Source of the DNA: a virus
Length of the DNA: 64,000 bases
Reading direction: 5' to 3' (one strand)
Virus record (IMG/VR): IMGVR_UViG_3300010403_000025
Span: 1-64,000 of that record
This document shows, piece by piece, positions 7,828 to 24,472 of this stretch. The translations under genes and the position numbers were made by a program. Under the pieces are notes generated by a model, which was not told the origin of the DNA, did not search any database, and saw only the letters and a program-made list of their open reading frames with translations. Within the stretch, counting starts at the first letter, position 1; every line of letters begins with the position of its first letter.

Positions 7828-8135
7828 GTGGGCTGATTTCGTTAAAAGAAGCGAAGGCGCATCTACGCGTCACGCACTCCGATGCGGATGAAGATATTGT
7901 GGCCAAGATTGAAGTCGCATCCGCCCTAGTTCTGGACTTCTTCAAACTCTCAGCAATACCGGATGCGTGGTACATCAACAGCCCTCAAGAGATCAACGCG
8001 CCGGATTATTACAAGAACGTCACGAGTCTCGTGTTGGGTGAACTCTACTTCAACCGTGAAGCCAGTATTAGCAACATCCTCTCTCAGGGAATGCTCGACT
8101 TGATCCGCTTGAAACGCGATCCCACTGTTGCATGA
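7824..8135 (+). CDS. Head-tail connector protein (gp6-like)
   Basis: This 103-residue helical protein has the sequence pattern of HK97 gp6-type connector proteins (LKEAKAHLRVTHSDADEDI near the N terminus, then a second helix pair). Such proteins form the ring below the portal. The start is TTG at 7824, overlapping the previous stop by four bases. The next expected gene, the head-tail joining protein, is not here but at 24475; the 16-kb sugar cassette intervenes and starts with an ATGA overlap. Confidence 0.8.
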   Translation: MSGLISLKEAKAHLRVTHSDADEDIVAKIEVASALVLDFFKLSAIPDAWYINSPQEINAPDYYKNVTSLVLGELYFNREASISNILSQGMLDLIRLKRDPTVA

Positions 8136-8860
8136 CTAAACCACTATTGAGTCTCGTTACCGGCAAAGTCGAACGCGATCCATCCTTCGCACGATTGGTG
8201 CGCTCGATTGTGCTGCATACGAAGGTGAACTGGGAGCTCGTGGTTAGTGACGCTAGCGAGATTCCATACGTATCCGAGTGGCGGAATGTGCGCGTGATTC
8301 ACGAGAAACCACGCTTAGGCCACGTTCGCGGATACAACCGAGCATTCGGTGAAGCGAAAGGAAAATGGATACTGTTCCTGAATGACGATGCTGAAGTTTT
8401 GCCGAACTACGATTTAGAAGCCATCGCCTTTATGGAAGCGCATCCCGATATTGGACTTGGCGCGCTGCACTATTCCGAAAATGGCGGGCCGTTTCATGTG
8501 AATTCCGCATGGGGCTGTGTGTACGCTAACTTTGGAATCTTCCCGCGCTTGCTCGGTGAGGACGTTGGGTTTTTCGATGAAGACATCCGGATGTACGGTG
8601 GCGACAACAGTTTCGCTTTCCGGATCTTGCTCGCGGACTACGGTATTGCCGATATCCCCACAGCCCGCGTGTTGCATCACGTCCAGAAAGACGAGATCCG
8701 TTGTGCTAACGAACTGACGCAACGCAACGATAACGACATTCTGTGTAAAAAATACATGCCGTTGCAATCCGAGTGGACGGCGACTTATCAAAAATATCGC
8801 GTGGACACGAGCGGCGGTGAAACGTGGAGTCACGGTGTGAGGCCGGAAGCGGTTCGGTAA
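8132..8860 (+). CDS. Glycosyltransferase family 2 (GT-A fold)
   Basis: This nucleotide-sugar-dependent glycosyltransferase has 242 residues. A Rossmann-like N-terminal half leads to the metal-binding motif LNDDAEV (D85-D86). Downstream FFDEDIRMYGGDNSFAFR corresponds to the acceptor/catalytic region seen in GT2 enzymes (GEDxDFxxR-type). It starts with an ATGA overlap from the connector gene, so the sugar cassette is read as a continuation of the head operon. The target, whether virion protein, DNA base or host surface, is unknown. Confidence 0.85.
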   Translation: MTKPLLSLVTGKVERDPSFARLVRSIVLHTKVNWELVVSDASEIPYVSEWRNVRVIHEKPRLGHVRGYNRAFGEAKGKWILFLNDDAEVLPNYDLEAIAFMEAHPDIGLGALHYSENGGPFHVNSAWGCVYANFGIFPRLLGEDVGFFDEDIRMYGGDNSFAFRILLADYGIADIPTARVLHHVQKDEIRCANELTQRNDNDILCKKYMPLQSEWTATYQKYRVDTSGGETWSHGVRPEAVR

Positions 8861-10048
8861 ATGCGTCTGCACCTGGGTTGCGGCAGTGTGTACTTGGACG
8901 GATGGACGAATATCGATGTCCGATCGCCCAATACCTTCCTTGCTGCGGATCGGCCGGACCTCGTCGATAAATGGAAGACGACGGACGACAACTACTACGG
9001 GCGGCATCAGGATAAAACGCTCGAGGTGTTACGCGCCGGCCCGTTGGATCAGGAATACGTCTGCGATGCGTATGGCTCATTCGACAACATCCCGGCGCCG
9101 TATTGGGATTGTGAAGAATTGCTCGCGAGGCATTCCTTTGAGCATTTGAGCATGAGTGAAGCGCATAAAGCGCTCGATCAAATCGACGCGATCATGAAGT
9201 TGAACGGTATTTTGCGCCTAGACGTGCCCGACCACGAAGGGACATTGCAGAAGTTCAGGGAGACGGGAGACGAATTCTACATCCGGCATCTTCTGGGACC
9301 ACGCCGGAATGAATACGGTTTTCACATGATGTCTTACGATCGGGAACGGCTACGTGCTCTTGTTGAAAGTCACGGATTTGTCTATGAAGGCGAGGAGCCG
9401 AATATTCATTTCTTCCCGGCGTTCACGTTACGCTTCGTCAAACCCGGACCACGCGCACCGCGAGATTACGTGAAGCTTCCCGATATTCCCGATAACTGGA
9501 GCGTTTTGGATGTTGGGCCGGGGCAATATCCGCATCCTCGTGCGACTGCCTACCTCGATTGCAATGTCGATAATATTCGGCGGTTGCAAGCCGAAGGGAA
9601 GAAAGTCATTATCGGCAATCTAATGGAAGGTTTATCGGACATCCCGGACAAAGCATTCGATTATGTCTGGGTGTCCCATGTGCTAGAGCACATTCCATCA
9701 CCTGAACGTGCGGCGGCGGCTCTCAGTCGTATTGCGAAACGTGGAACCGTCGTCTTACCGTCCACATTCAAGGAAATGATGTTCTGTGGCGAGGAGGAAG
9801 ATCATCGCTGGCAAACACTGCCGAATCCTGCGAATGGTGGACCGCCCATATTCATCCGCAATAACAGCGACTACATGAAGACGCTACGAGATTCCACGGT
9901 GCAAAAGATCACATCGCGGCTGTATCGGACGGGACCGAACCGGCATGAAGAAGCGCGATATCTGCGAAAGTGGTTCTATGAAAACGAAGAAGCGCTCGAC
10001 GTGGTGCACCATTGGAGCGGAGAGTTGACACTACAGGTGATCGGATGA
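8861..10048 (+). CDS. Tandem methyltransferase-like protein
   Basis: The 395 residues hold two SAM-methyltransferase-like domains. The first starts immediately with MRLHLGCGSVYLDGWTNIDV, the glycine loop of sugar or lipid methyltransferases, and includes ARHSFEHLS. The second (about 205-330) has SVLDVGPGQYPHPRATAYLD and VWVSHVLEHIPSPERAAAAL. Both HxLEH-type motifs are typical of class I enzymes methylating glycans. No gap separates it from the preceding glycosyltransferase. It probably methylates the same glycan; that link is inference. Confidence 0.8.
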   Translation: MRLHLGCGSVYLDGWTNIDVRSPNTFLAADRPDLVDKWKTTDDNYYGRHQDKTLEVLRAGPLDQEYVCDAYGSFDNIPAPYWDCEELLARHSFEHLSMSEAHKALDQIDAIMKLNGILRLDVPDHEGTLQKFRETGDEFYIRHLLGPRRNEYGFHMMSYDRERLRALVESHGFVYEGEEPNIHFFPAFTLRFVKPGPRAPRDYVKLPDIPDNWSVLDVGPGQYPHPRATAYLDCNVDNIRRLQAEGKKVIIGNLMEGLSDIPDKAFDYVWVSHVLEHIPSPERAAAALSRIAKRGTVVLPSTFKEMMFCGEEEDHRWQTLPNPANGGPPIFIRNNSDYMKTLRDSTVQKITSRLYRTGPNRHEEARYLRKWFYENEEALDVVHHWSGELTLQVIG

Positions 10049-10248
10049 TCGCCTTACCCGCAAATCCAGAGTACAGGGAACTATTCATTAAGCGGCCTAG
10101 TTGGAAGCGGTTTATTTATGCGTCAGCGCTTTATGAAGCAGGCAGAGTTAAGATTCGTGGCCGTGAAATCCTGTTTGCTGGGTACAGTATCGATGGAAGC
10201 GGCAAGCGCTTGAAAGATCTCCACGTTTACTACGTCGTTCTCAAATAA
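10045..10248 (+). CDS. Small basic protein in sugar cassette
   Basis: From ATG 10045, which overlaps the previous stop by ATGA, it encodes 67 residues (MIALPANPEYRELFIKRPSW). It looks like an all-beta or alpha/beta domain, rich in Tyr and Lys. No family is recognised. Its TAA shares a base with the next ATG. Confidence 0.6.
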   Translation: MIALPANPEYRELFIKRPSWKRFIYASALYEAGRVKIRGREILFAGYSIDGSGKRLKDLHVYYVVLK

Positions 10249-11342
10249 TGAAAATCGCCGTCCTCGATACCTACTATCCTGATTTTCTGAAATCCGTTGA
10301 AATCGGCGACGATGGTTATGAGACGCTCTTGCAGCGATTGCTCGCGAAACAGTTCGGTACCGCTGATTTCTACAGTCGAAATCTGCGTGCGTTGGGTTGG
10401 GAAGCGATCGATATCATCGCGAACTGCTACCTGATTCAGCAGCACTGGGCAATGGAAAACAACGAGCCGTCGCGTGAATTGGAAGACATCGCTCTCGCGC
10501 AAATCAAAGCCTTCGCACCGGACGTTGTGTTTGTGCAGGACCTCTCGTTCTTTAGCGTGTCCACGCTGCATCGGTTACGCGGATCGTATCTGTTGGTAGC
10601 GCAGCATTCGTGTCCGTGGGCGGGCGATGAGCGCGTGCGCGAGTTTCATTTGATCTTCACGAGTTTTCCGCATTACGTTCCACGCATCGAAGCCCTCGGT
10701 GTGCGTGCCGTCTACAATCCTCTGGCGTTTGAGTTTGAGGCGATACGCAAGCTAGTAAGCAAGCAGTGGGAACGGCGGTATACCGGCTATCCTGACGCAT
10801 TAAAACGCATTCACGACTGCGTCTTTATCGGTGGCGTCGGCAATCCGTCCCACTGGACGTATGGAATGCAAGTGCTCGAAACTGTCGCGCGCGAAATACC
10901 GACATTCAAATGGTGGGGCTATGGCGTGGAGACACTGCCAGCGGATTCGCTTCTTCGGCAGAAGTATCAGGGGCAAGCGTTTGGAATAGACATGTATTCC
11001 ATCCTGTTGCAGAGCAAAATTGCGCTGTGCCGTCATGGAGAGGTCGCCGAGGGTTACACAAATGCGATGCGCGTTTTTGAAAGTACGGGTTGCGGCGCGC
11101 TTATGTTGACCGAAGAAAGTAAAAACATATGGGATCTATTTTCCGCTAACGAAATTGCTACGTATTTAACACCGGTACAGGCTGTACAGAAAATACAATA
11201 TTACCTAGCAAATGAAGGCGAGAGAGCGTACATCGCAGCCAAGGGTCAAGCTAGGTGTTTGCGCGACCATACATATACTCAGAGGATGCAAGTAGTCTCG
11301 GAGGTCTTAAGGGAATGCCTCGTAAGCGCTATCCAAAACTAA
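10248..11342 (+). CDS. CgeB-like glycosyltransferase (GT-B fold)
   Basis: The 364 residues start with a Rossmann strand MKIAVLDTYYPDF. The C-terminal half carries ALCRHGEVAEGYTNAMRVFE and STGCGALMLTEESKN, the donor-binding signature of CgeB/YkvP-type glycosyltransferases, followed by AVQKIQYYLANEGERAYIAA. These enzymes transfer sugars to spore, surface or phage components. The coding sequence overlaps the next gene (the homing endonuclease) by 28 bases. Confidence 0.8.
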   Translation: MKIAVLDTYYPDFLKSVEIGDDGYETLLQRLLAKQFGTADFYSRNLRALGWEAIDIIANCYLIQQHWAMENNEPSRELEDIALAQIKAFAPDVVFVQDLSFFSVSTLHRLRGSYLLVAQHSCPWAGDERVREFHLIFTSFPHYVPRIEALGVRAVYNPLAFEFEAIRKLVSKQWERRYTGYPDALKRIHDCVFIGGVGNPSHWTYGMQVLETVAREIPTFKWWGYGVETLPADSLLRQKYQGQAFGIDMYSILLQSKIALCRHGEVAEGYTNAMRVFESTGCGALMLTEESKNIWDLFSANEIATYLTPVQAVQKIQYYLANEGERAYIAAKGQARCLRDHTYTQRMQVVSEVLRECLVSAIQN

Positions 11343-12145
11343 TGGACCGGCACATCGTCGTCTGCGCATGTGGGTGTGGCCAGACGTTTATGGATTATGA
11401 CTCTGAGGGACGATTGCGGCGGTTTGTGTCTGGACATAACACCACGCGCGAATTTGCACAAACGATCAGGGCCAGACTGACGGCGCGACCAGATGCGCGG
11501 CAGATATTTAGCGCAGCGGGCAAGAAGGCATGGATGGATGCGGATTACCGTAAGCGGATGCTTGAGTCTGGGCAGAGACAGTGGGCAGATCCTAGATTTA
11601 GAGAAAAGACCCTGTCGGCCGCGCATGCTGCAGCAAAAGAAAAATGGAGAGATCCAGAATTCAGGCAACGGATGGTTGAGGCGGGCCGACGGCTGAGTCA
11701 TCATTTGCAAAGGCCAGATGTTAAATCCAATAATCGGCGCGCTGTATCGAATCGATTAAAGCAGCTGTGGAGGACGCCTGAATGGATCGCCAAACTTAAG
11801 GTGACACATGCGAGCCAATGCGGGACGACGAGAACGAGCAAGCCAGAGAAACGCCTGCACCGCTTCATTTCAAATATCGGCCATGCATTCGAAACAGATA
11901 AACGTTTCGTCTTGAATCACGGCTACACGGTGCCGGATGCATATATCCCCTCTGTCAATCTGGCAATATTTACAGATGGAACCTATTGGCATGGTAAGCC
12001 CGAGAAACGGCGGCGTGATTCAGAGCAGAGAGAAGCCTTGCGGCAAATGGGCGTCAATGTGTTCGTTATCGATCAGGGGCAACCAGAGCAACCTCAATTC
12101 GAAATATTGCAGCGCACGCTCCAGGAGATGCTGTGTCCCGCATAA
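11315..12145 (+). CDS. Free-standing homing endonuclease (NUMOD3 repeats plus Vsr-like nuclease)
   Basis: ATG 11315 is preceded by GGAGG at 11300-11304. The 276-residue product begins with a CxCGCG zinc-like motif. It then has at least four NUMOD3-type DNA-binding repeats of the form W.DP.FR..M (about 65-165). A C-terminal nuclease domain (PEKRLHRFISNIGHAFETDK, then PDAYIPSVNLAIFTDGTYWH) resembles the Vsr/PD-(D/E)XK homing nucleases of the I-Bth0305I kind. It should cut a phage lacking the gene and copy itself across. It lies between two sugar genes and overlaps both. Confidence 0.78.
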   Translation: MPRKRYPKLMDRHIVVCACGCGQTFMDYDSEGRLRRFVSGHNTTREFAQTIRARLTARPDARQIFSAAGKKAWMDADYRKRMLESGQRQWADPRFREKTLSAAHAAAKEKWRDPEFRQRMVEAGRRLSHHLQRPDVKSNNRRAVSNRLKQLWRTPEWIAKLKVTHASQCGTTRTSKPEKRLHRFISNIGHAFETDKRFVLNHGYTVPDAYIPSVNLAIFTDGTYWHGKPEKRRRDSEQREALRQMGVNVFVIDQGQPEQPQFEILQRTLQEMLCPA

Positions 12146-12852
12146 TGGACTACCGCAGGATCGATCAGTTAGAGGCGGTCATCGTTGCGGCAGAACACGC
12201 GAACGCCTGGAAGGATCCGGACATTCCGAAACTGCAATATGAAATCGCAAGCCGTGAACTCGACAATTATCGTAAGGGGATATCGGTCCCGCCGTTCAAT
12301 GCGCTGATCCGCTGCTTGCGTCAGATCTCGTTCGGGCCGAAGGTATCGATACTCGATGTCGGAGCGAGTGCAGGGTATTACAGCGAAGTCTTAAAGATTG
12401 CGGGATACGATTTCGACTATACGGCGCTGGACTTCTCGCCGACATTCAAGGAATTGGCCGAGGAACTCTATCCCGGCATTCGATTCGATCTGGGAGACGC
12501 CCGACAGTTGCCCTACGCGCATGATGCTTTCGATATCGTTTTGAGCGGCTGTTGCATGTTGCACATTCTCGACTATGGGCAGGTAATCCGCGAGACGGCT
12601 CGAGTCACTTCACGCTATGCGATCTTCAGTAAGACTCCGATTAGGTTTGACGCAACGACGTATTTTGAAAAGACAGCCTATGGCAAGCCGTGTCTGGAAA
12701 TCCATTTCAGCGAAGCGGAGTTGCTGCAATTATTCTTGGATGCTGGCTTACGGCTGATTTACTCGACGGATGTGTATTCCGCCGTGACCGAACTCGGCGG
12801 GTATCGCACGTACCTGTTAGAGAAAAAACACCTCATGCACCATCCGGTCTGA
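12133..12852 (+). CDS. SAM-dependent methyltransferase
   Basis: The class I methyltransferase motif I is KVSILDVGASAGYYSEVL, followed by an acidic strand end (DYTALDFSP) and the motif IV region DAFDIVLSGCCMLHI. The 239-residue length fits the Methyltransf_11/25 type. GTG 12133 is chosen because AGGAG sits five bases upstream; an ATG at 12145 that overlaps the previous stop is the alternative. Substrate unknown; a sugar is likely from context. Confidence 0.82.
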   Translation: MSRIMDYRRIDQLEAVIVAAEHANAWKDPDIPKLQYEIASRELDNYRKGISVPPFNALIRCLRQISFGPKVSILDVGASAGYYSEVLKIAGYDFDYTALDFSPTFKELAEELYPGIRFDLGDARQLPYAHDAFDIVLSGCCMLHILDYGQVIRETARVTSRYAIFSKTPIRFDATTYFEKTAYGKPCLEIHFSEAELLQLFLDAGLRLIYSTDVYSAVTELGGYRTYLLEKKHLMHHPV

Positions 12853-12855
12853 TGA

Positions 12856-13869
12856 GTGTCGAGATTACGAATCGGAATCGTCGGGGCTGGTTTTGGAAGC
12901 TATGGACTACTGCCAGCCTTTCGGCGCGATGATCGATGCGAAGTTACCGCCATTGCCACAACATCTCCAGAAACTGCCGTGCGTGCAGCTTCACGGTTGG
13001 GTATCGCTCGTCCGTTTGCGTGTTGGGAAAAGCTGGTTAGCTGTGACGAGGTCGATGCAGTTGCCATTGCCACACCGCCAGTCTTTCAACCGGATATCGC
13101 TGTGGCAGCACTCTCCATCGGAAAGCCTGTGTTTGCCGAAAAGCCATTGGCCGCGAATCTTGCCGAGGCCGAAACGCTCGTGACCGTGGCCGAGACATGC
13201 GGAGTGGCGAATGTCGTGGATTTCCTATTCCCCGAATTGACTGTGTTCGCAAAGGCAAAAGAATTCATGAGCCAAGGTTGTATTGGAACGCCTCTGCACA
13301 TTGCGGCCGAATGGATATTCTGGAGTTCTGATCATCGGCATAACGCGACGACGTGGAGGACGGATACTCGTTCAGGTGGTGGAGCGCTCTCGCACTACGG
13401 CTCGCACATGATTTACTACCTGCAATCGTTCTTTGGCCCGATCGCATCTGTTACTGCTCGAGTCACCAAGCCATTCGACTATCGGCATTCGGGAGACACG
13501 ATTGCGACACTGATTCTTTCTTTTAAGAAAGGAACTACTGGCACGCTCACGGTCAGTTCCGGCAGTCCTACAGCGGCGCGACATTCCGTTGAGATTTTGG
13601 GAACTGCCGGAACCCTGGTGTTATCCAATGCCACGGAGAATCCGGTATATGGCTTTACGCTACAGCATCACAAAGGCCACGACGCCGCAGGCGAACCAAT
13701 CGGCGAACCGGAAGAAACGGGCGTGGATTGCCGGGTGCGTCCAGCATCTCAGATTGTGCAGCGTTTTATCGACTGGATTCTCACGGGGCAGCAAGCACGG
13801 CCATCGTTCCGTGACGGCCTGGATGTGCAGCGGGTCCTTGAATCGGCCCTTCAATCGAGGACCGCGTGA
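12856..13869 (+). CDS. Gfo/Idh/MocA-family oxidoreductase
   Basis: This NAD(P)-dependent sugar oxidoreductase has 337 residues. The N-terminal Rossmann loop is RIGIVGAGFGSYGLLPAF, and the family's catalytic EKP lies in KPVFAEKPLAANLAEA. The C-terminal beta-sheet domain includes GGGALSHYGSHMIYYLQSFF, whose His is in the usual active-site place. It probably oxidises or epimerises a nucleotide sugar for the cassette. Start is GTG 12856, three bases after the previous stop. Confidence 0.88.
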   Translation: MSRLRIGIVGAGFGSYGLLPAFRRDDRCEVTAIATTSPETAVRAASRLGIARPFACWEKLVSCDEVDAVAIATPPVFQPDIAVAALSIGKPVFAEKPLAANLAEAETLVTVAETCGVANVVDFLFPELTVFAKAKEFMSQGCIGTPLHIAAEWIFWSSDHRHNATTWRTDTRSGGGALSHYGSHMIYYLQSFFGPIASVTARVTKPFDYRHSGDTIATLILSFKKGTTGTLTVSSGSPTAARHSVEILGTAGTLVLSNATENPVYGFTLQHHKGHDAAGEPIGEPEETGVDCRVRPASQIVQRFIDWILTGQQARPSFRDGLDVQRVLESALQSRTA

Positions 13870-14135: not shown

Positions 14136-14148
14136 GAATCGCAATGTG

Positions 14149-14262: not shown

Positions 14263-14268
14263 AGGTTA

Positions 14269-14274
14269 ATTATA
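14269..14274 (-). promoter_or_regulatory. TATAAT -10 box of leaderless mini-gene
   Basis: A perfect TATAAT on the minus strand ends six bases before ATG 14262, placing the predicted transcription start at the A of the start codon. The -35 region is weak. Confidence 0.55.
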
Positions 14275-14288: not shown

Positions 14289-14990
14289 GTGAGAATCTCC
14301 CTTCTCTCAACAGACGGACGCGATGATATCGTTGAAGGATTCATCAAGTTTGCTGAGCGCTTCTGGCCCGACAGGCGGTGGCCTATCGACGTTATCGCTG
14401 GTGATCCTGAAGGCTCGTACAGTAAAAGAATCACTTCGTATTTGAAATCGATACCGGACGAAGTTTTGATGATGGCCATCGATGATTTCTGGCCACTCGG
14501 CGTGGATCAGAAGGCGATCGATCGTGCCTATGAGCACATCTTGAACAACAAATCCGTCGGAGCGATTCATTTACTTCCCTGTGTCAGTACTGGCGCGGAC
14601 TGTCCCGAACTTCCAGGCTTCCGGCATATCGACATTCGTGATTCGGACCGAAGTTCCGAAGGAGCATTCCTGACACGTCGGCAGTATATGTTGGAGATCA
14701 CCGAGAATATCGGTTCCCGGCTAACCGAAGAGCAGGATGCAGGAATCATCGGCATGACCTATTGGGAACTGAACGCCAATCAGATTGGCTCGCACTGGGA
14801 TGTGTTATGCCCATACGCGACGGTTCACGTCTTCTCACGCATCAACGCTGCAGCCGAAGCGCAATGGCGGGAAGAGACAGTGGCGTTGGTGGCCAAGATG
14901 GGAATCGATCTGGATATGACGCGACGGCCGTTATGGGACGGCAAGTTCCCACACTGGGATGCGTGGAGCCGCTTACCTTCGCAGGTTTAG
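14289..14990 (+). CDS. Glycosyltransferase-like protein with DDF motif (paralogue 1)
   Basis: The 233-residue product starts at GTG 14289. The key signature is hydrophobic residues then DDFW (VLMMAIDDFWPL, D65-D66), resembling a GT-A metal site. The N terminus has FAERFWPDRRWPIDVIAGDP. Genes at 17833 and 22975 share the same layout, so these are three paralogues. The donor and acceptor are unknown, and catalysis is inferred from the DD motif and neighbours. Confidence 0.65.
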   Translation: MRISLLSTDGRDDIVEGFIKFAERFWPDRRWPIDVIAGDPEGSYSKRITSYLKSIPDEVLMMAIDDFWPLGVDQKAIDRAYEHILNNKSVGAIHLLPCVSTGADCPELPGFRHIDIRDSDRSSEGAFLTRRQYMLEITENIGSRLTEEQDAGIIGMTYWELNANQIGSHWDVLCPYATVHVFSRINAAAEAQWREETVALVAKMGIDLDMTRRPLWDGKFPHWDAWSRLPSQV

Positions 14991-15003: not shown

Positions 15004-15237
15004 TTAAAATAATGTGATCTTGATGAAATCGTCGTCACTCTCACGCTTTAATATAAAGCAGTCATGCGGCCACCAATCCGCGGCGTCATCGCCCTTACAT
15101 AGATAATGCTTGCCAAAAAACTCATTCAGCTGATCCGGAGAACGACGGGTAGTGAACCACGGCCCGCCGTAATGCTTTGCAATGCCGAAGCCTTGATTGC
15201 AGAACTTGCAAACGATATATAGCCGATCATTGGCCAT
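15004..15237 (-). CDS. Small Cys/His protein, antisense
   Basis: The 77-residue product starts MANDRLYIVCKFCNQGFGIA. CxxC near the N terminus with later CK and HDC could bind zinc. Its ATG is placed back to back with the next plus-strand gene's ATG, so the two start codons overlap in opposite directions. An AATAAT box lies five bases before the ATG. Function unknown. Confidence 0.6.
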   Translation of the reverse strand: MANDRLYIVCKFCNQGFGIAKHYGGPWFTTRRSPDQLNEFFGKHYLCKGDDAADWWPHDCFILKRESDDDFIKITLF

Positions 15238-16336: not shown

Positions 16337-17257
16337 ATGAAGCAATACATTTACAAGCCTGAACATATTGGGCTAAGTCAGTGGCCATCCGGTGAACTAA
16401 GACTGGAAGGCATCGAGATCACGGATGATCCGCACTCTGCGGACATTTTTGTGTGCCCGGGAAATATCCGGCTCTTTGAAGCCACGCAGGGCACCGGCAT
16501 CTTGGATCACGCGAGACTCTACGGACTGCCGTACTTCGCTGGCAATGAATCGCGCCACGTCTTCTTCGATTGCTCGGACAATTTTAAAGCGGCGATTCGT
16601 CTGCCGATTCTATTTATCAAATGCGATGCCCGAACGTGGATGCTGCCGCATGATCCCGGTACTGTGCCTATCGCGTGGCCCGTCGAAGACTATGCCGAAT
16701 GTATGGAACTGCCGGATCGTGGTTTCATTCATGACATTAGTTTCCATGGATGGTTGTCCACGGATACGCGCACGGCATCCTCGAATGCGTGCCTGGATAA
16801 TCCCAAGCTTAAATCAGACGTTGCGCAGTACTCAGACTTCTTTGGATACCGTAAACCGGAGGATCCCGAATACACACGGCGCCGTGCAGCGTTTCGCCGG
16901 AGCATGAGAGACAGCCGACTCGCACTGTGCCCCGAGTCGATTCCCGGCGTGCTGCCGTACCGATTCTTTGAAGCGATGAGTGCGGGCCGGATTCCATTAC
17001 TCGTATCCAGTGACTACGTGCTGCCGTTCAGCCACGAGATACCCTACGATGATTTCATCATCCGCGTTGAAAGCCGAGATGCTTCTCAGGCGGATGCTGC
17101 TGCTCTGGCCTATCTTGACGGGAAAGCCGACCACGAACTGATCGATCGCGGATTAGAAGCGCGGCACTACTGGTTGAAATTTCTGGATGCTCGACGGTGG
17201 CCTGAAATCATGGCCTATGCGGTGACGCAGAAGTTGAAAACGTTGGTCACGTCATGA
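16337..17257 (+). CDS. Exostosin-like glycosyltransferase (GT47-type)
   Basis: The 306-residue GT-B enzyme has the exostosin signature in the C-terminal half: LCPESIPGVLPYRFFEAMSA then GRIPLLVSSDYVLPF and YDDFIIRVE. Upstream is FHGWLSTDTR, the typical central glycine region. Exostosins transfer GlcA, Gal or related sugars. Phage copies are uncommon. The start at 16337 abuts the divergent mini-gene, and the stop overlaps the next gene by ATGA. Confidence 0.82.
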   Translation: MKQYIYKPEHIGLSQWPSGELRLEGIEITDDPHSADIFVCPGNIRLFEATQGTGILDHARLYGLPYFAGNESRHVFFDCSDNFKAAIRLPILFIKCDARTWMLPHDPGTVPIAWPVEDYAECMELPDRGFIHDISFHGWLSTDTRTASSNACLDNPKLKSDVAQYSDFFGYRKPEDPEYTRRRAAFRRSMRDSRLALCPESIPGVLPYRFFEAMSAGRIPLLVSSDYVLPFSHEIPYDDFIIRVESRDASQADAAALAYLDGKADHELIDRGLEARHYWLKFLDARRWPEIMAYAVTQKLKTLVTS

Positions 17258-17665: not shown

Positions 17666-17836
17666 ATGACCGCCGAGCGGAAATACGCATTGCTTCAGGC
17701 AAGTGCATTGATCTTCGCCGAGACCCTAGACCACATGGACCCGAATAACCATCTGTCGGAAGAGGATCTCATCGAGTCCGCTGTGGCACGCGCCGAGTTG
17801 CTACTTGCTGAGATTGAACGGCGCGAAAAGGAATGA
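17666..17836 (+). CDS. 56-residue helical acidic protein
   Basis: The product MTAERKYALLQASALIFAET and on is acidic and helical. It overlaps the following glycosyltransferase-like gene by ATGA, which supports it as a real coupled gene. No family recognised. Confidence 0.5.
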   Translation: MTAERKYALLQASALIFAETLDHMDPNNHLSEEDLIESAVARAELLLAEIERREKE

Positions 17837-18552
17837 GTCTCGACACTCGCCTCGTTGTCGTTTCCTGTCCTCGTCGCGCACCGATTCAGCAAATATGGTG
17901 GGACTGCTTTAAGAGAAGCTGGCCGGATTGTCCGCTTCCCGTTACGGTGCTGTCGCCTGAAATAGACTTCGGATGGAATGCGAACTTAAGGCAATGCCTC
18001 GACACGCTCACGGAAGAATTGATCCTGCTCATGCTCGACGACAATTTTCTCGAGCCGCTACCGTCTGGTGAAATGACCGCAGGGATTTTTCGCGTGGCCG
18101 AACTGATGACAACGCATCCCGATATCGCGATGGTGAAACTTCAAGCCGGCGCGGCGCATGCTCCCGAGCTTGAATTTCCCGACTGGGACCGTATCCGCGA
18201 ATACGATCGCGCGCACCATCCATTCAAGAGAACGAACTTAGTCCCGACGCTCTATCGGCGAACGTGGCTGCATCGCTTATCGAGTGCAGTGCTGTCCGAG
18301 ATTGGCCCTGCGCGGGATGTTGGCCGAAACGGTGCGATTGAATTTGAAATGACAGGAACGCTACTGACGATGAATACCGAGAACTGGCCCGAGCGCATGA
18401 TGGGCGTGCATCGGCCGCTCCCTGGAGGTAACGGCGGCGATTCGTTTCTGACGTGCCTCGCGAATGATGCGGTACTGGAAGGAAGAATGCGGCCGATTGA
18501 CGTTTTGCAGAATCTTTGTGTCGGCGTTCCTGGGATTGAGGCGTTTTTATGA
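17833..18552 (+). CDS. Glycosyltransferase-like protein with DDN motif (paralogue 2)
   Basis: The 239-residue paralogue of the genes at 14289 and 22975 has the acidic pair in ELILLMLDDNFLEPL (D69-D70). The N terminus is MSLDTRLVVVSCPRRAPIQQ, with KRSWPDCPLPVTVLS matching the FWP...V-D segment of its relatives. A GT-A-like fold is inferred. The 3' end overlaps the convergent antisense gene by six bases. Confidence 0.65.
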   Translation: MSLDTRLVVVSCPRRAPIQQIWWDCFKRSWPDCPLPVTVLSPEIDFGWNANLRQCLDTLTEELILLMLDDNFLEPLPSGEMTAGIFRVAELMTTHPDIAMVKLQAGAAHAPELEFPDWDRIREYDRAHHPFKRTNLVPTLYRRTWLHRLSSAVLSEIGPARDVGRNGAIEFEMTGTLLTMNTENWPERMMGVHRPLPGGNGGDSFLTCLANDAVLEGRMRPIDVLQNLCVGVPGIEAFL

Positions 18553-18831
18553 TTTATAGGATATTGAGCCAATGATTACCTGGGTGGGACCGTCGAGAGA
18601 TGGTAGCTGCCAGGTATATGATCCGTTGACGAACGATACGTGTGTGCCAACGTTCTTCCATTGCCCGTTTATGAACAGCTGTAATTGGACATCATGGCTG
18701 TATTGAGCGACGGACACGACCTTCGGAATAAAAATGGTTTTCGCTTCTGGGCGCCAGAGCAGTTGTTCGGGATCTACGGCAAGGGACGCGGCCACTGCCA
18801 TCGCTCTCTGAAGAAATCCACGTCTATCCAT
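18547..18831 (-). CDS. Antisense protein with twin-arginine-like N terminus
   Basis: From ATG 18831 it encodes 94 residues starting MDRRGFLQRAMAVAASLAVD, resembling a Tat signal (RRGFL). It is followed by PEQLLWRPEAKTIFIPKVVS, a tail often seen in phage proteins with this head. The C-terminal part is beta-rich. An in-frame GTG at 18969 would add 46 residues and bury the signal, so it is disfavoured. Function unknown. Confidence 0.55.
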   Translation of the reverse strand: MDRRGFLQRAMAVAASLAVDPEQLLWRPEAKTIFIPKVVSVAQYSHDVQLQLFINGQWKNVGTHVSFVNGSYTWQLPSLDGPTQVIIGSISYKS

Positions 18832-19027
18832 AGCTATGAAGAACCTGTGAAAGCTAGCCGCTCCATCAAGGTTAGCCACTGGGACAGCGTTGGGCTGCAC
18901 GTCCACTTGGGCGTCAAGCGGTGAACGCTGAGCTACGCTTGACTTATCCGAAACGGATTCGCAGTTCACGACCTCCGCTTTCCTTACATACGGCGCTCTG
19001 GTCGCTAGCTTTAAAGAGAATCATACA
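18832..19027. other. Gap before the PLP/PMP-enzyme gene
   Basis: About 200 bases with no convincing gene. The plus strand has AAAGAGAAT shortly before TTG 19028. On the minus strand a possible longer N terminus of the antisense gene would extend to 18969. I see no strong promoter or terminator. Confidence 0.3.
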
Positions 19028-20302
19028 TTGATCTACGCTCAAGCGCATCCCGTAGCACTGCGAGAGATGATTGAAGAACGTCTCGCTCAAGCACCGGCAC
19101 CAACCTATCCCTACCCTCTCGGCTATGTCACTTGGACGGCGGATGAAATCTTAGCGGCGCTGGATTGTCTCTGCGATCGCATGACGACGATGTGGACGAA
19201 GGTCGAGGACTTCGAGAGGCAATTCGGCGACTATCTTGGATCTCAACGGGCCGTGATGGTGAACTCCGGATCGAGCGCGGACCTCGTCATGATGCTGGTT
19301 TCACGCGAACTGGGAATGCTCCAGCGCGGCGATGAGATCCTGATGCCGGCCGTTACTTGGCCGACACAGGCATGGGCGGCAATCGAGGCGGGATTCTCGG
19401 TGAGGTTCGTTGACGTCGAAGTCGCCACGCTGAATACCTCGCCGGCGATTCTCGAAGCGGCGATTACACCAAAGACGAAAGCGATCTTCCTCGTCCACCT
19501 GATGGGCAATCCCTGCGAGATGGATGCGATTCAAGAACTGGCCGAGCGCCACAAGCTATTGATCTTTGAGGACTGCTGCGAAGCCCTCGGTGCGGAGTTC
19601 GATGGTCACAAGGTCGGAACGTTCGGAGTAGCAAGCGCCTTCTCATTCTTCGCGTCTCATCACATTTCGACGATGGAAGGCGGCATGATCACGACAGAGA
19701 GCGCGGAGTTTGCGGAAGGTTGCCGATTGATGCGCGCTCATGGTTGGGCTCGCGATATGCGCTATCGGCTGAATGATGTGGAGTGCCTGACGCGGTATGG
19801 TTGCGTGGATGATCCGCATTATTTATTCCTTGCGATGGGTTTTAACTTCCGGCCTACCGAACTGCAAGGCGCTATGGGGCAGGTGCAGCTCGAGAAACTC
19901 GACACCATGAACCGATGGCGCGAGACGAATGCGACGGCAATTGCGAATCAGTTTCGAACAACGAACGAGCACACCGTAGAAGCCTTGATGCCGACGAGCT
20001 ACAAAGCCACGCCTGCGTGGTTTGGTCTGCCATTCGTGATTAAAGACAAGATGCCGTACACGCGAAGCGATGCGGCGCGATATTTGAAACAGTACGGAGT
20101 CGATACCCGGCCGATCGTGGGCGGAAACCTTATGAGACATCCAGCGTTTTGGAAGTATGCCGCGATGGCCGCAGATGCCCTGCCCGGTGCGAACGCGATT
20201 CACGATCGCGGCTTCTATGTGGGCCTACCACCCTTTGAAGCATCGATGAATGGATTAGTGGGACTGCTCAGCAATATGGATTCTTATCTACGATGCGCTT
20301 AA
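19028..20302 (+). CDS. DegT-family sugar enzyme with His at the PLP-lysine position (ColD/RfbH-like 3-dehydratase)
   Basis: The 424-residue fold-type I protein has the family's order of motifs: VNSGSSADLVMMLVS, PAVTWPTQAW, EDCCEALGAEFDG and FNFRPTELQGAMG. The loop that normally carries the PLP-binding lysine reads SFFASHHISTMEGG, with H211 in that place. ColD and RfbH, which use PMP to remove the 3-hydroxyl of 4-keto-6-deoxy sugars, also carry His there. A 3-deoxysugar pathway is therefore suggested. The start TTG is uncertain (next ATG at 19067). Confidence 0.8.
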   Translation: MIYAQAHPVALREMIEERLAQAPAPTYPYPLGYVTWTADEILAALDCLCDRMTTMWTKVEDFERQFGDYLGSQRAVMVNSGSSADLVMMLVSRELGMLQRGDEILMPAVTWPTQAWAAIEAGFSVRFVDVEVATLNTSPAILEAAITPKTKAIFLVHLMGNPCEMDAIQELAERHKLLIFEDCCEALGAEFDGHKVGTFGVASAFSFFASHHISTMEGGMITTESAEFAEGCRLMRAHGWARDMRYRLNDVECLTRYGCVDDPHYLFLAMGFNFRPTELQGAMGQVQLEKLDTMNRWRETNATAIANQFRTTNEHTVEALMPTSYKATPAWFGLPFVIKDKMPYTRSDAARYLKQYGVDTRPIVGGNLMRHPAFWKYAAMAADALPGANAIHDRGFYVGLPPFEASMNGLVGLLSNMDSYLRCA

Positions 20303-20764
20303 TGACGGTGATTCATGAGGCAACGCTGATTCGATGTCATCGGCCAGCTTACGGAGTGCATTCATAATGCTAGATAAGCCATCGCTAAACGAACCGTCCT
20401 CTCGACACTGCGCGATGTCGTCTTCGAGCGCAGCGCGTAGGTTGAACGAGTACTCTGGATCTCGATCGTCAATGTCGCCAAGTGCAATACTGAGATAGAT
20501 TGTGAGCGGATCAACTGGCTCGGTCTTTTTCCGTCCGTCGCCATCGCCCCATATGGCTGGCCAGTCTATGCGCGTATTCTCATCCTTTAGGGCTAATACG
20601 AGCGCCTCTTCCGCCGCGCGGGTAATAAGTTGTTTTAGTCCACCTATGGCTTCATCTAGCGAGGTCAAGGCCCAGTCAGTTAGGTCCGGCCTGTTGTATT
20701 CGTGGGTAAGGTTTATCACGCCTCGCGGCGGTTGGACATCTTTGTTAGATTTCTTTTTAGCCAT
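20288..20764 (-). CDS. 158-residue protein of unknown function, antisense
   Basis: The product is acidic and helical, with a Lys-rich head (MAKKKSNKDVQPPRGVINLT). GGAGG lies ten bases before the ATG, so unlike the mini-genes it has a normal leader. The IS element has inserted into its leader at 20802-20809. A TTACAA/TATATT promoter in the element's left end now points at it. Confidence 0.6.
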   Translation of the reverse strand: MAKKKSNKDVQPPRGVINLTHEYNRPDLTDWALTSLDEAIGGLKQLITRAAEEALVLALKDENTRIDWPAIWGDGDGRKKTEPVDPLTIYLSIALGDIDDRDPEYSFNLRAALEDDIAQCREDGSFSDGLSSIMNALRKLADDIESALPHESPSLSAS

Positions 20765-20801
20765 GAGCGGGATTCCTCCGTTTGTGGTCAGAACCCGTCA
20801 A

Positions 20802-20809
20802 GGAGTTAG
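20802..20809. repeat. Target-site duplication, left copy
   Basis: GGAGTTAG directly precedes the left terminal inverted repeat and is repeated exactly after the right one at 22937-22944. Eight bases is the duplication size of IS1595-family elements. Confidence 0.85.
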
Positions 20810-20815
20810 GGCAAT

Positions 20816-20844
20816 AATATACTTGACTGACATACCCTTTGTAA
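20816..20844 (-). promoter_or_regulatory. Outward-facing promoter in the left IS end
   Basis: On the minus strand TTACAA (20839-20844) and TATATT (20816-20821) have a 17-base spacer and point out of the element towards the 158-residue gene at 20764, whose own GGAGG remains upstream of its ATG. Confidence 0.5.
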
Positions 20845-20852
20845 CATATAGT
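20823..20852 (+). promoter_or_regulatory. Transposase promoter, leaderless arrangement
   Basis: TTGACT (20823-20828) and TATAGT (20847-20852) are 18 bases apart. The -10 box ends seven bases before the transposase ATG at 20860 and no Shine-Dalgarno sequence is present. The -35 hexamer lies inside the inverted repeat. Confidence 0.65.
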
Positions 20853-20859
20853 TCTTTAT

Positions 20860-21849
20860 ATGGATAAGAACTCTTTGCCGCAGACCTTACAAGAAGCCGT
20901 CATTTACTTCGCGGACTATCAGCATTGCCACGACTTCATGATATCGCTTCGTTGGCCTGATGGCGTCGTGAAGTGCCCGCATTGCGGCTCTGACAACGTG
21001 AAGTATTTGCCAAATGCTCGCGTGTTCAAATGCTTCGAAAAACATCCGCTCGCGAAATTCTCATTGAAGGTCGGAACGATTTTTGAAGACTCACCAATCA
21101 GCCTGGATAAATGGATTATCGCAATGTGGCTTGTGGTGAACTGCAAAAACGGCGTCTCGTCCTACGAGATTGCGCGCGATTTGAAAGTCACACAGAAAAC
21201 CGCATGGTTCATGGACCATCGCATTCGATTTGCGCTTCACGCTGGATCATTCGAAAAGATGGGCGGCGAAGGAACGGAAGTCGAAGCCGATGAAACGTAT
21301 ATCGGCGGACTCGCACGCAACATGCACAAAGATGTTAGGGCCCGCAAGATCCAGGGGCGCACTGGCTATGCTGGTAAGACTGCCGTGTTCGGTTTATTGG
21401 AACGCGGCAAGAATGGAAAGTCTCGCGTCAAAGCTCAGGTTCTACCGAATCAGTGGAACACCAAAGAAGCCCGCGCCATCATTCGCGAAACGGTTGAGCA
21501 AGGAACAAACCTCTACACCGACGAACACGGCGCATATCACGCGATTGGTTCCGAAGGTTTCAACCATGCGTTCGTTCGGCACGCGGAGTCTTACGTTGAT
21601 GGCGCGGTTCACACCAATGGAATTGAAAACTTCTGGTCACTCTTGAAGCGCGGCATCAAGGGCACATACGTTAGCGTGGAGCCGTTTCATATGTTTCGCT
21701 ATCTGGACGAACAGGCTTTCCGCTTCAACGAGCGCTTTGGAAACGACCAAGACAGGTTCTTGGCTGCAATGCAAGGTGCAGTAGACAAGCGACTCACATA
21801 TAAATTGCTCACGGGAAAACTGGAGGATGCTAGTTCGGTATCTAACTAA
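20860..21849 (+). CDS. IS1595-family transposase
   Basis: The 329-residue DDE-type transposase has an N-terminal zinc ribbon (VKCPHCGSDN, about residues 40-50), then a helix-turn-helix (NGVSSYEIARDLKVTQKTAW). The catalytic core follows, with acidic residues in VEADETYIGG, LYTDEHGAYH and TNGIENFWSLLKRG. The HTNGIENFW and KRGIKGTYVSVEPFH stretches are hallmarks of the ISXO2-like/IS1595 group. Length is normal and the frame is intact, so it may be active. A terminator-like hairpin follows. Confidence 0.93.
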   Translation: MDKNSLPQTLQEAVIYFADYQHCHDFMISLRWPDGVVKCPHCGSDNVKYLPNARVFKCFEKHPLAKFSLKVGTIFEDSPISLDKWIIAMWLVVNCKNGVSSYEIARDLKVTQKTAWFMDHRIRFALHAGSFEKMGGEGTEVEADETYIGGLARNMHKDVRARKIQGRTGYAGKTAVFGLLERGKNGKSRVKAQVLPNQWNTKEARAIIRETVEQGTNLYTDEHGAYHAIGSEGFNHAFVRHAESYVDGAVHTNGIENFWSLLKRGIKGTYVSVEPFHMFRYLDEQAFRFNERFGNDQDRFLAAMQGAVDKRLTYKLLTGKLEDASSVSN

Positions 21850-21879
21850 AACTGAGAAGAGGCGACAGAAACGAGGAAA

Positions 21880-21912
21880 GCGGAAGTCTTAACGCGGCTT
21901 CCGCTTCGTTTG
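21880..21912 (+). terminator. Terminator-like hairpin after transposase
   Basis: GCGGAAG (21880-21886) pairs with CTTCCGC (21898-21904), followed by TTCGTTTG. It overlaps the end of the convergent 46-residue gene. The T tract is broken, so activity is uncertain. Confidence 0.45.
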
Positions 21913-22029
21913 TTTCTTTCGTTTCGGTAGTGCCGATTTTGGCACAGTCAGAACGGCTTTCATGGCATCGCGCAAACGCTTGAATGCTTCCGGGCCTTCG
22001 ATCATTTCACGATGTTTCGTGCTACCCAT
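21889..22029 (-). CDS. 46-residue basic protein in the IS element
   Basis: The product starts MGSTKHREMIEGPEAFKRLR and ends in a Lys/Arg tail. The (I/F)EGPEAxxRF..AM..(I/V)L.VPK pattern is a widespread bacterial small-protein family of unknown role. It has a good Shine-Dalgarno sequence (AGGAAAGGA) just before the ATG. As a passenger gene it may be an antitoxin-like or regulatory partner; this is a guess. Confidence 0.65.
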   Translation of the reverse strand: MGSTKHREMIEGPEAFKRLRDAMKAVLTVPKSALPKRKKQTKRKPR

Positions 22030-22063
22030 GCGCTTCCTTTCCTAATGGTTCATAGTAGCACGG

Positions 22064-22885
22064 TCACGGAAATAGGCCGCTACTGACGAACTGTGGCAAT
22101 AAATGAACTCGGATATAGGAATGAATTCCCGCAAGGGTTTTGACAACCAATTCATCTTTGGCCACGCCACTGGCGAACGCAATACTCATCAGTGGTCTGA
22201 TCAACATTGCCATTTCAGGGTGATCGATCCAAAAGGAAAATGGCCGGAGTTCGGCAATTACTGTGTCTGTCGTTATCATCCGACCGCCGAAGTACGTGTT
22301 CTGTTGCTGCAAGAATGGGTGAAGCTCGGGTACATCGAACGTGTCAACGGTAGCGCCGCTGGTATGCAAGACCCTGTGCTTATCCGCATTGGACAATTCG
22401 GCCAAAAGCCCAAGGTGTGTTTTGAGTGGGAATGGGTCGTGGTGCGGCTGCAAACTCTTGATCAGTGTCTTGGCCGCTGGGTCCATTCCATCGATTCTCC
22501 GTTCTTGACTCTTGGGGAATCCGTCTTTCGTGTTGGGGTCGCTCTTGACGACGATCGGGAATTGGGAGCTCTTTGCGATCTCATCGCTAATTGCCGACCC
22601 GATCTTTCGATGATGGGCTTCAATCAGTGCGAAGTTAATGTGATCGAGAGAGCCACGCAGATTATGAAGTATATCCCCGATGATCAACGAGAACGGGTCG
22701 TCAGGTGGTTGGACTCCAATGCTGATTCTGTATTCGATATAGTGACTGGGGTCTTGAATTGGCTGGAGTCGAAACGTCGCTTTACTTTCGGATTGGACCC
22801 AATTGGTGATCTCCGACCGCAATTGCTTCAAGTGATACTGCGCCCTGTCGAGTTTAAGAATAAAGCTGTGATCTGGGGAGGCCAC
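22064..22885 (-). CDS. Passenger gene of IS element: GDxLHNLRxxLDH protein
   Basis: The 273-residue product begins with GTG 22885, about 50 bases inside the right end. It contains IIGDILHNLRGSLDHINFAL (about residues 85-105) and LLAELSNADKHR near 170. These motifs mark a common but uncharacterised family. RGSLDH fits the Rx4H spacing of HEPN ribonucleases, so an RNase or abortive-infection role can be imagined but not shown. A -35-like TTGGCT in the inverted repeat points at this gene. Confidence 0.7.
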   Translation of the reverse strand: MASPDHSFILKLDRAQYHLKQLRSEITNWVQSESKATFRLQPIQDPSHYIEYRISIGVQPPDDPFSLIIGDILHNLRGSLDHINFALIEAHHRKIGSAISDEIAKSSQFPIVVKSDPNTKDGFPKSQERRIDGMDPAAKTLIKSLQPHHDPFPLKTHLGLLAELSNADKHRVLHTSGATVDTFDVPELHPFLQQQNTYFGGRMITTDTVIAELRPFSFWIDHPEMAMLIRPLMSIAFASGVAKDELVVKTLAGIHSYIRVHLLPQFVSSGLFP

Positions 22886-22936
22886 GACCGTCTATTCTTA
22901 CGTACTCTGGGGCTGTCAGCCAAGTATGTTATTGCC

Positions 22937-22944
22937 GGAGTTAG
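22937..22944. repeat. Target-site duplication, right copy
   Basis: GGAGTTAG is identical to 20802-20809 and directly follows the right terminal repeat. Confidence 0.85.
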
Positions 22945-22974
22945 CAGCTCCTTAGCGGGTTCGCTTATTTTAGC

Positions 22975-23658
22975 ATGAAACTTGCTGTCGCCACCTGCTG
23001 GGCCTATCGGGATGCGCTTTTACCGTTCTTCTATCTGCTCGATAAGTTTTGGCCGACGCATCCGGAAGTGACGATCGTAACGGATGAATGGTGCGGTGAT
23101 AGCTACGGTGCCGACGTGTATCAAGGTGGACGAAAGACATGGTGTCAGATTCTCGCGGGATATGCGAAGGAAGCGGAAGAGACGATACTCCTCCTTCAGG
23201 ACGATTTCTTCCTGACAGTGCCAGTTCAGAACGACCTCGTGATTCACGGACTGAAGGAAATGTACACGTATGACGCGGGTTGCGTTCGACTCTATCCGTG
23301 TCCCGGTGGAGTGGAACGTTACGGCGATCCGTACTTTCAAGTCGTCCCGAATGGCGAACGGTACAGGGTAAGTTGTCAGGCCAGTCTATGGAAGCCGAGC
23401 TATCTCTATAAGATTGTGAGCAAATGCCACGACCACGGAGAACCGAGCGACTTTGAAACCAACGGCACCGTGTATAGCTATCAACTACCGGAGCCGGTCC
23501 TAGCATTCAAGGCCGATATACGACCGTTGCCGCTGGACTATCTGTGCAGCGCCATTTCGAGAGGACTATGGGAACCGGCTGCTATTGAGCTGTGTGAGAA
23601 GTATCACATCCCGATGGATCGATCGATGCGTGAGGTCGCAACGCCGTGCTTAACGTAA
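22975..23658 (+). CDS. Glycosyltransferase-like protein with DDF motif (paralogue 3)
   Basis: The 227-residue protein (MKLAVATCWAYRDALLPFFY) has the acidic pair in TILLLQDDFFLTVP (D76-D77). DKFWPTHPEVTIVTDEW matches the corresponding segment of the genes at 14289 and 17833. The N-terminal fold looks like GT-A. It is the first gene after the IS element and overlaps the next gene by 13 bases. Confidence 0.65.
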   Translation: MKLAVATCWAYRDALLPFFYLLDKFWPTHPEVTIVTDEWCGDSYGADVYQGGRKTWCQILAGYAKEAEETILLLQDDFFLTVPVQNDLVIHGLKEMYTYDAGCVRLYPCPGGVERYGDPYFQVVPNGERYRVSCQASLWKPSYLYKIVSKCHDHGEPSDFETNGTVYSYQLPEPVLAFKADIRPLPLDYLCSAISRGLWEPAAIELCEKYHIPMDRSMREVATPCLT

Positions 23659-24323
23659 CGGCGATCATGCCGACGCGCGGAAGGCGCGTCTGGGCGAATC
23701 AAGCCTTGAAGTGTTTTCTCGCGCAGACCTACGAACACAAAGATTTGATCATTCTGGATGACGAGGACAATCCATCCTTTCCAATACCGCCGAAGTATCC
23801 CAACGTGGCGCACATTCTCTTAAAAGAGAGAATGTCGATAGCCGCTAAACGCAACATGGCGGTGCGATTGGCGACGGGTGAAATCATTTGTCATGTCGAT
23901 AGTGACGACTACAGCGCACCGAATAGATTTCAAGACCAAGTCGCGCTCCTCGAAGAACATCACAAATCCGTCACCGGATACCATTCGATGATTTTCCACG
24001 ATGCGGAACGCGGCCTTTGGTATTTCAAAGGCCTTCAGGGGTTTCCGATGGGAACGAGTCTCATGTATCGGAAATTGTTCTGGAGTGGATGTCAATTCGT
24101 ACCGGACCCGATTCATGTGGCGCTCGGTGAATTGAACGTCGGCGAAGACAATATGTTTGCCAGGGCGGCGCGAAACGCTAACGAAGTCATCACGACAGAT
24201 GCAGGCTTCACGATGGTCGCGCGAAGTCATTCGGATAACGTCTCGAAACGCGATGTTCTAAATCGCGAGCATCAAGAGTGGCATCGCTGGACGGGTGGAT
24301 TGCCGACAGGGTTTACGCCGTGA
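23646..24323 (+). CDS. Glycosyltransferase family 2
   Basis: The 225-residue GT-A enzyme has the N-terminal VTAIMPTRGRRVWANQAL and the metal-binding HVDSDDYSAPNRF (D85-D88). The C-terminal part includes GEDNMFARAARNA, the GT2 ED catalytic region. Start is GTG 23646 within the end of the previous gene. It is the last enzyme of the sugar cassette. Confidence 0.85.
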   Translation: MLNVTAIMPTRGRRVWANQALKCFLAQTYEHKDLIILDDEDNPSFPIPPKYPNVAHILLKERMSIAAKRNMAVRLATGEIICHVDSDDYSAPNRFQDQVALLEEHHKSVTGYHSMIFHDAERGLWYFKGLQGFPMGTSLMYRKLFWSGCQFVPDPIHVALGELNVGEDNMFARAARNANEVITTDAGFTMVARSHSDNVSKRDVLNREHQEWHRWTGGLPTGFTP

Positions 24324-24472
24324 AGATATTAGCGATTCTTACTTTATTGTTGAATATGGCGCTCTTCGGTTATTGGTTCTACGTCGGCAATGCGGTCCTG
24401 GTCGCCGTATGCGCTTCTGCCGTGTGCGCATCTGCAGGTATGGCATTGGTCCGCATGTTCAAGGGTTACTGA
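24320..24472 (+). CDS. 50-residue membrane protein
   Basis: It starts at GTG 24320, overlapping the previous stop (GTGA). The product has two hydrophobic helices (ILTLLLNMALFGYWFYVG; VLVAVCASAVCASAGMAL) and a short basic tail. Its function is not known; it ends the inserted sugar cassette. Confidence 0.55.
   Translation: MKILAILTLLLNMALFGYWFYVGNAVLVAVCASAVCASAGMALVRMFKGY

Follow-up and report, generated by a model that had tools for sequence, protein, structure and literature searches.

A methyltransferase-bearing glycosyltransferase cassette between the head-tail connector genes of a phage, found in unrelated phage backbones

Why should the two genes that connect head and tail in a phage lie 16.3 kb apart, with enzymes of sugar metabolism between them? 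The question is raised by the virus record IMGVR_UViG_3300010403_000025 (66,745 bases), of which bases 1-64000 were analysed here as one stretch, hereafter the window. An initial annotation of the window, made without database searches, had placed the end of a connector gene at 8135 and the start of a head-tail joining gene at 24475, with a sugar-modification cassette between them. Pfam and PHROG matches confirmed this layout. The left gene encodes the gp6-like head-tail adaptor Ad1 (7824-8135, + strand; PF05135 1.4e-8, phrog_40 5.1e-8) and the right gene the head closure protein Hc1 (24475-24846, +; PF05521 1.9e-10, phrog_25 4.8e-9). Both are single-copy: PF05135 and PF05521 gave one match each in the whole record, leaving no rival set of head-tail joining genes. 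The same layout occurs at high identity in contig L029 and in the divergent phages L024, L042, and L091, which rules out an assembly artefact.

The answer that we favour, with moderate confidence, is that the span is a portable pathway building a methylated oligosaccharide on a virion protein, expressed together with the head and tail genes. It draws on our observations of gene content, folds, order conservation, insertion site, purifying selection, and presence in unrelated backbones.

Enzymes of the cassette

The span holds eight glycosyltransferase (GT)-type genes, two methyltransferase (MT) genes (one of them tandem), one GFO/IDH/MocA oxidoreductase, and one sugar 3-dehydratase dependent on pyridoxamine phosphate (PMP), all on the + strand. 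The initial annotation had counted at least six glycosyltransferase or transferase-like genes; the eight found here were recognized by Pfam in four cases and by fold and hhalign in the others. Its two methyltransferase genes and its oxidoreductase were likewise borne out by Pfam (at 8861, 12133, and 12856).

Eight of the genes constitute a core that recurs in other contigs. The first is GT2a, a family 2 glycosyltransferase (8132-8860; PF00535 1.7e-12), followed by MT1, a tandem S-adenosylmethionine (SAM) methyltransferase (8861-10048; PF13489 in two stretches) that is split into two separate open reading frames (ORFs) in L004, L019, L024, and L042. Next come GT1 (10248-11342; PF13524, 1.1e-25), the SAM methyltransferase MT2 (12133-12852; PF08241 2.4e-13), a GT8-fold glycosyltransferase (15197-16084), and a GT47 or exostosin-type enzyme (16337-17257; PF03016 5.6e-11). 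The core closes with a GT-A-fold transferase (22975-23658), for which no Pfam or PHROG family was found, and GT2b, a second family 2 glycosyltransferase (23646-24323; PF00535 7.9e-15). The AlphaFold2 model of the GT8-fold enzyme (mean confidence, pLDDT, 76.9) matched XXYLT1, LARGE1, and glycogenin in Foldseek (E 1e-10 to 1e-9), and that of the GT-A-fold enzyme (pLDDT 91.2) matched B4GALNT1, KfiA, and TarP (E about 1e-6 to 1e-5). With moderate TM-scores (about 0.4-0.6), these predicted structures make the fold class of both enzymes secure, but not the substrate. According to a hydropathy scan, none of the window glycosyltransferases and methyltransferases is an integral membrane protein, and no window glycosyltransferase has a 19-residue stretch with mean hydropathy of at least 1.6, as would be expected of an integral-membrane Gtr transferase. 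A 64-aa membrane-type ORF (24278-24472, +; maximum hydropathy 2.33) lies between GT2b and Hc1.

The remaining enzymes are accessory. Two of them (14289-14990 and 17833-18552) are paralogues of the core GT-A-fold transferase (hhalign probabilities 97.2 and 94.3). The oxidoreductase (12856-13869; PF01408, PF22725) has PDB matches that include the sugar 3-ketoreductase 3rbv. The enzyme encoded at 19028-20302, which the initial annotation had rightly called a PMP/PLP sugar enzyme, belongs to the DegT family (PF01041 6.5e-83), and its nearest PDB matches are ColD (2gms, 1.8e-66) and CDP-4-keto-6-deoxyglucose 3-dehydratase. In the window and in L029 it carries a histidine in place of the lysine that binds pyridoxal phosphate (PLP), in the motif SFFASHHISTMEGG, which we take to be the mark of PMP-dependent dehydratases. 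A ColD/RfbH-like 3-dehydratase along with a GFO reductase leads us to predict a 3-deoxy sugar in the window pathway. The DegT enzymes of five other carriers (L027, L037, L041, L045, and L046) have the lysine motif; L045 has an FdtA gene (PF05523) beside it, and nucleotide-sugar epimerase genes occur in L041 and L046. Since the accessory enzymes differ among carriers, the core would be a common scaffold to which each lineage adds its own sugars.

Conserved core, probable transfer, and insertion site

A portal search yielded 16 related loci, to which searches with MT1, GT1, and GT47 added more. All eight core genes occur in identical order (GT2a-MT1-GT1-MT2-GT8-GT47-GT-A-GT2b) in L018, L019, L024, L029, L042, and the window; seven are in window order in L027 and L045, six in L037, and five in L025. 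The core is rearranged in L040, lacks GT47 and GT-A in L086, and lacks MT2 in L091. In L041 and L046, MT1 precedes GT2a and MT2 is absent. L004, L028, L034, and L039 end early or diverge after MT1, where L034 and L004 carry other genes. Protein by protein among 13 carrier records, GT2a, MT1, GT1, and GT8 were present in 13/13, although the MT1 and GT1 counts are biased by selection, most records having been found through one of these two. GT47 was present in 12/13, MT2 and the GT-A family in 11/13, DegT in 8/13, and GT2b in 6/13. The alignment of GT-A proteins did not include L046.

Seven core proteins had no tblastn match among 50,697 phage records at 1e-5, the exception being GT2b with three weak phage matches. 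A scan of genome contigs by short patterns, which was not exhaustive, found bacterial relatives of MT1 at two loci, covering its N-terminal half only. These loci, L031 and L032, are in Chisholmbacteria genomes, and the neighbours in L031 appear by eye to be surface-polysaccharide genes. An order-conserved pathway of eight genes, seven of whose proteins went unmatched, suggests that elaborate glycans may be common in uncultured phages, and the core supplies a definite list of genes that can be sought and tested.

The cassette is found in phages whose heads are unrelated. With the window portal and capsid as queries, tblastn found nothing in G011, G004, and G005, yet the identity of their cassette proteins to those of the window is 43-58% (G011), 47-57% (G004), and 35-54% (G005). 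In L018, which has the same head as the window (portal identity 65%), cassette identity is 44-57%. Such similar identities in a same-head phage and in phages with unmatched portal and capsid (G011, G004) point to transfer of the cassette as a unit. Judged by their head or replication genes, the carriers fall into at least four backbones: that of the window; the L042/L019 type, with a phrog_442 adaptor and a separate capsid; L025/L026; and G005/G010/G012/G013, which have replication-type proteins in common (function assigned by eye). A fifth may be represented by G009.

Comparison with L029 gave a ratio of nonsynonymous to synonymous divergence (dN/dS) of 0.016-0.213 for every cassette gene compared, a sign of purifying selection. 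A dN/dS comparison of the portal with L002 was set aside, the L002 frame used having contained stop codons. Synonymous divergence fell into two classes: 0.22-0.65 for GT2a, MT2, GFO, g13866, g14289, GT47, g17833, and DegT, and 1.28-1.92 for MT1, GT1, GT8, GT-A, and GT2b; nearby structural genes ranged from 0.12 to 1.02. These two classes fit the exchange of particular enzymes as alleles between the near-identical phages of the window and L029. Most of the difference within the pair falls in some glycosyltransferase genes and in a single methyltransferase gene, a pattern that resembles allele exchange at a surface trait, perhaps driven by endonuclease genes.

One such gene and other elements, which the initial annotation had overlooked, lie within the window cassette. 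A Vsr-like endonuclease ORF, probably a homing gene (11255-12145, +; PF03852 4.1e-7), overlaps the end of GT1; tblastn did not find it in 16 other carrier records, some of them partial. A block of 2.68 kb (20302-22983), absent from L029 as seen at the blastn junction, holds an IS1595-type transposase (20860-21849; PF12762 1.5e-38) and antisense ORFs. We call it a transposase-bearing block rather than a proven insertion sequence because terminal inverted repeats were not found in 20280-23000. The G009 record (L040), another carrier, encodes a protein 50% identical to this transposase. Several antisense ORFs occupy gaps within the window cassette, and L029 has instead a minus-strand ORF (12650-13411) that resembles, by eye, a homing endonuclease (Pfam match only to PF13936, below cut-off). 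Outside the cassette, an ORF at 25525-26562 (-) without Pfam match, resembling by eye a zinc-finger homing endonuclease, has relatives in three other carriers. The genes had been described as mostly coupled by short overlaps. The 4-base ATGA overlap of GT2a with Ad1 stands, but the description was overstated: the 17 gene-to-gene junctions between Ad1 and Hc1 comprise 6 overlaps, 3 spacings of 0-3 bases, and 8 gaps measuring 153-1125 bases.

The cassette lies between adaptor and Hc1 in all five contigs with both ends visible (window, L029, L024, L042, and L091). Its left neighbour is the adaptor in the window and L042 types, with two genes intervening in L019 and one small ORF in L024, L034, and L004. 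On the right, the gene after GT2b is Hc1 in L024, L029, L042, L086, and L091, and is also present in the fragments L087, L089, L092, and L093, which hold GT2b. To survey this junction, contigs were collected with the major tail protein, and 80 of 204 relatives were kept. Adaptor and Hc1 were both found in 48/80. In 26 of these the two genes count as adjoining, being no more than 600 bases apart, whereas in the other 22 they are separated by 1.9 kb or more. After dereplication at 90% tail-protein identity, 23/34 clusters adjoin and 11/34 carry cargo of 2-8 kb. The claim that the two genes normally adjoin thus holds for most relatives, but fails for about a third of them. Empty junctions include that of L088, a comparatively close relative (gap 0), and that of L010.

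Cargo content was inspected in the 11 cargo clusters except L160. Three carry the cassette (L085, L090, and L091), L126 has fibre-like and other genes, and the rest have other transferase-type genes, assigned partly by eye. Among 26 proteins scanned from seven cargo clusters and L088, at least four matched methyltransferase families, and others matched GT2, GT8, GT9, or nucleotide-sugar-transferase families. With cargo in 11/34 clusters, mostly transferases, the adaptor/Hc1 junction is a recurrent landing site for transferase cargo. A different four-gene cargo occupies the same junction in L101 (6358-8858), as well as in L094, L096, L098-L100, and L105-L108; its first gene matches 75 phage records, including P1 (PmgO/PmgP region) and PMG1 ('sialyltransferase'). 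Radical SAM genes lie in or beside the cassette position in L004 (9438-10289, with SPASM) and in L005 (6921-7802, directly after Ad1, below the Pfam cut-off).

The surrounding genes are those of a tailed phage. The left end of the window reads terminase, capsid, portal, collagen-like protein, Ad1, cassette, Hc1, and major tail protein. On the + strand, these include the terminase large subunit (131-1771; phrog_9 1.4e-136), a fused head protease and major capsid protein (2033-4108; phrog_617 6.4e-105, phrog_80), the portal (5306-6706; phrog_2271 1.5e-107), and the major tail protein (25054-25482; phrog_158 3.5e-18). The collagen-like protein between portal and Ad1 (6706-7827, +; PF01391 5.6e-29) ends in a stretch like a family 5/12 carbohydrate-binding module (PF02839 1.9e-4, below its cut-off), and its C-terminal part resembles the C-terminus of the portal family phrog_2271. 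Since the record encodes an ERF protein and an integrase besides the terminase, protease-capsid fusion, portal, and tail genes, the phage is probably a temperate siphovirus. Far from the cassette lie a further methyltransferase (49049-49597; PF13578) and a weak PagL-like ORF (52774-53307).

Probable acceptor of the proposed glycan, and rival explanations

If the cassette does build a methylated glycan for the virion, the pathway would draw on host sugar nucleotides and on one or two more that come from accessory enzymes (in the window, the 3-dehydratase and the GFO reductase). The six conserved soluble glycosyltransferases would assemble an oligosaccharide, and up to three methyltransferase domains would add methyl caps. 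The sugars would most likely be attached to an abundant protein of the virion (capsid, tail tube, or a fibre) while it is still unassembled in the cytoplasm, and the glycan coat may change how the particle adsorbs, how stable it is, or how host or environmental factors recognize it. Late transcription, the order of sugar addition, the acceptor, and the benefit are what we infer here. In a more specific version, which we hold tentatively and regard as rather less probable, the order-conserved unit, passing between unrelated tailed phages, would glycosylate whatever major surface protein its recipient has, via a short generic acceptor motif, providing a methylated coat with swappable alleles. 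If true, these phages would encode a glycan coat of their own much as chloroviruses do.

The genomic setting agrees in part with the proposal of the initial annotation that the cassette is read with the head genes and decorates virion proteins. Glycosyltransferase and methyltransferase genes lie within the virion structural block and on its strand; the cassette overlaps Ad1 at its start and has Hc1 near its end, the last transferase ending at 24323. In L018, a gene of phage lysozyme or endolysin type (10974-11402; PF00959) lies inside the cassette. In other backbones, the cassette adjoins a tail spike, as in L040, or follows distal-tail and fibre-like genes, as in L045. Lipid-linked machinery for O-antigen did not turn up: the lipid-linked initiating transferase PF00953 and the Wzx flippase PF01943 matched 0/10 records, and controls matched 12 and 13 of 14. 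The collagen-like fibre, given as an example target, became less attractive. Collagen repeats occur in 9/17 carriers (some partial) and 3/6 non-carriers, and collagen was rejected as a common acceptor. We regard the observation itself as real and its interpretation as plausible but unproven.

Several points weigh against this reading. A single conserved acceptor would be expected to show as a structural protein family that only carriers have, and across backbones there is none. Nor did the capsid and tail tube of carriers show a C-terminal extension of their own, a mark that was considered and dropped. In L027, no family match was obtained for the scanned genes ahead of the cassette, and the genes behind it look by eye to be replication genes. 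The usual products of the ColD/RfbH pathway are 3,6-dideoxyhexoses, which are O-antigen sugars. Host transferases of the lipopolysaccharide (LPS) core are also soluble, so the solubility of the cassette enzymes is compatible with a lipid acceptor.

The enzymes might instead extend or cap the LPS core, or another acceptor on the cytoplasmic side, late in infection or during lysogeny, and thereby block superinfection or protect progeny. We consider this unlikely, even though the dehydratase, FdtA, and epimerase genes of carriers are typical of surface-polysaccharide sugars, the phage has an integrase, the only bacterial MT1 relatives found include a locus among apparent surface-polysaccharide genes, and carriers share no virion acceptor. 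Cyanophage sugar clusters are also read this way in the available text of PMC7824862. What tells against it is the position inside the head-tail module and the absence, with positive controls matched, of the initiating transferase, Wzx, and the GtrA flippase (PF04138, 0/10 records; controls 7/14). Moreover, promoter-like sites and terminators in the span did not exceed shuffled counts, giving no sign of a separately promoted unit.

Two further explanations seem very improbable to us. Glycosylation of modified bases in phage DNA has a precedent in phage glycosyltransferase genes (available text of PMC12619734, citing Pyle 2024), but the thymidylate-synthase-type gene PF00303 was found in 0/14 carrier records (some partial) with controls matched, and in most carriers the cassette sits with structural genes. 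A search for TET/JBP gave 0/14 carrier records and no match in the controls either. Equally far-fetched is the idea that the enzymes do nothing together and that morons, homing endonucleases, and a transposase have collected at a permissive site as an island in decay. The Vsr-like ORF, the IS1595-type block, the antisense ORFs and gaps, and the unrelated cargo at the same junction in other phages would suit such an island, but a dN/dS of at most 0.213 in all compared cassette genes and an order conserved across divergent backbones would not.

Comparison with known systems

A search of the literature by title and opening of the abstract, in which preprints and most subscription papers were outside the scope, found no description of this cassette. 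Capsid or tail-tube glycosylation is reported, citing Freeman et al. 2023, in the available text of PMC12363180, PMC11600133, PMC11256854, and PMC12619734. In the literature consulted here, few phages have documented virion glycosylation, and the gene sets involved are small.

The nearest parallel is found in Cluster O mycobacteriophages (Corndog, Firecracker, and Dylan), which also have methyltransferase and glycosyltransferase genes in the head module and on the same strand. Between their portal and protease genes, phages of the Corndog type carry an O-methyltransferase, two glycosyltransferases, and a GlcNAc-transferase; capsid modification is proposed in the available text of PMC4351075, and later papers report virion glycosylation for Corndog. 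On our favoured reading, the cassette is of this kind. Cluster O has four genes at the portal/protease junction, compared with 8-12 at the adaptor/Hc1 junction here, and the Firecracker and Dylan genes show no profile similarity to any of 10 cassette families (best hhalign probability 9.5, for the methyltransferase fold). Because neither this comparison nor tblastn against the phage records revealed homologous enzymes, the cassette is, on sequence evidence, analogous to the Corndog type and not a member of its family.

Other systems resemble the cassette in part. The chlorovirus PBCV-1 encodes soluble glycosyltransferases and a predicted methyltransferase domain that act in the cytoplasm on its capsid protein (available text of PMC5408694). 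The likeness to the cassette is by description, and PBCV-1 differs as a virus of algae whose glycosyltransferase genes are expressed early. In the D3-like Pseudomonas phage PMG1 and the L101 group, transferase-type genes are also next to Ad1/Hc1, but in PMG1 the two genes adjoin, the transferase-type genes flank them, and the families differ. The gtrABC serotype-conversion genes and cyanophage LPS clusters are phage-borne glycan genes too, as are the jumbo-phage sugar clusters (available text of PMC7824862). Unlike gtrABC and the cyanophage clusters, the cassette is without GtrA and without a membrane glycosyltransferase, and it lies inside the head-tail module. Set beside these systems, it is a larger, non-homologous form of phage glycan cassette embedded in structural genes, in which a portable, order-conserved core was unexpected.

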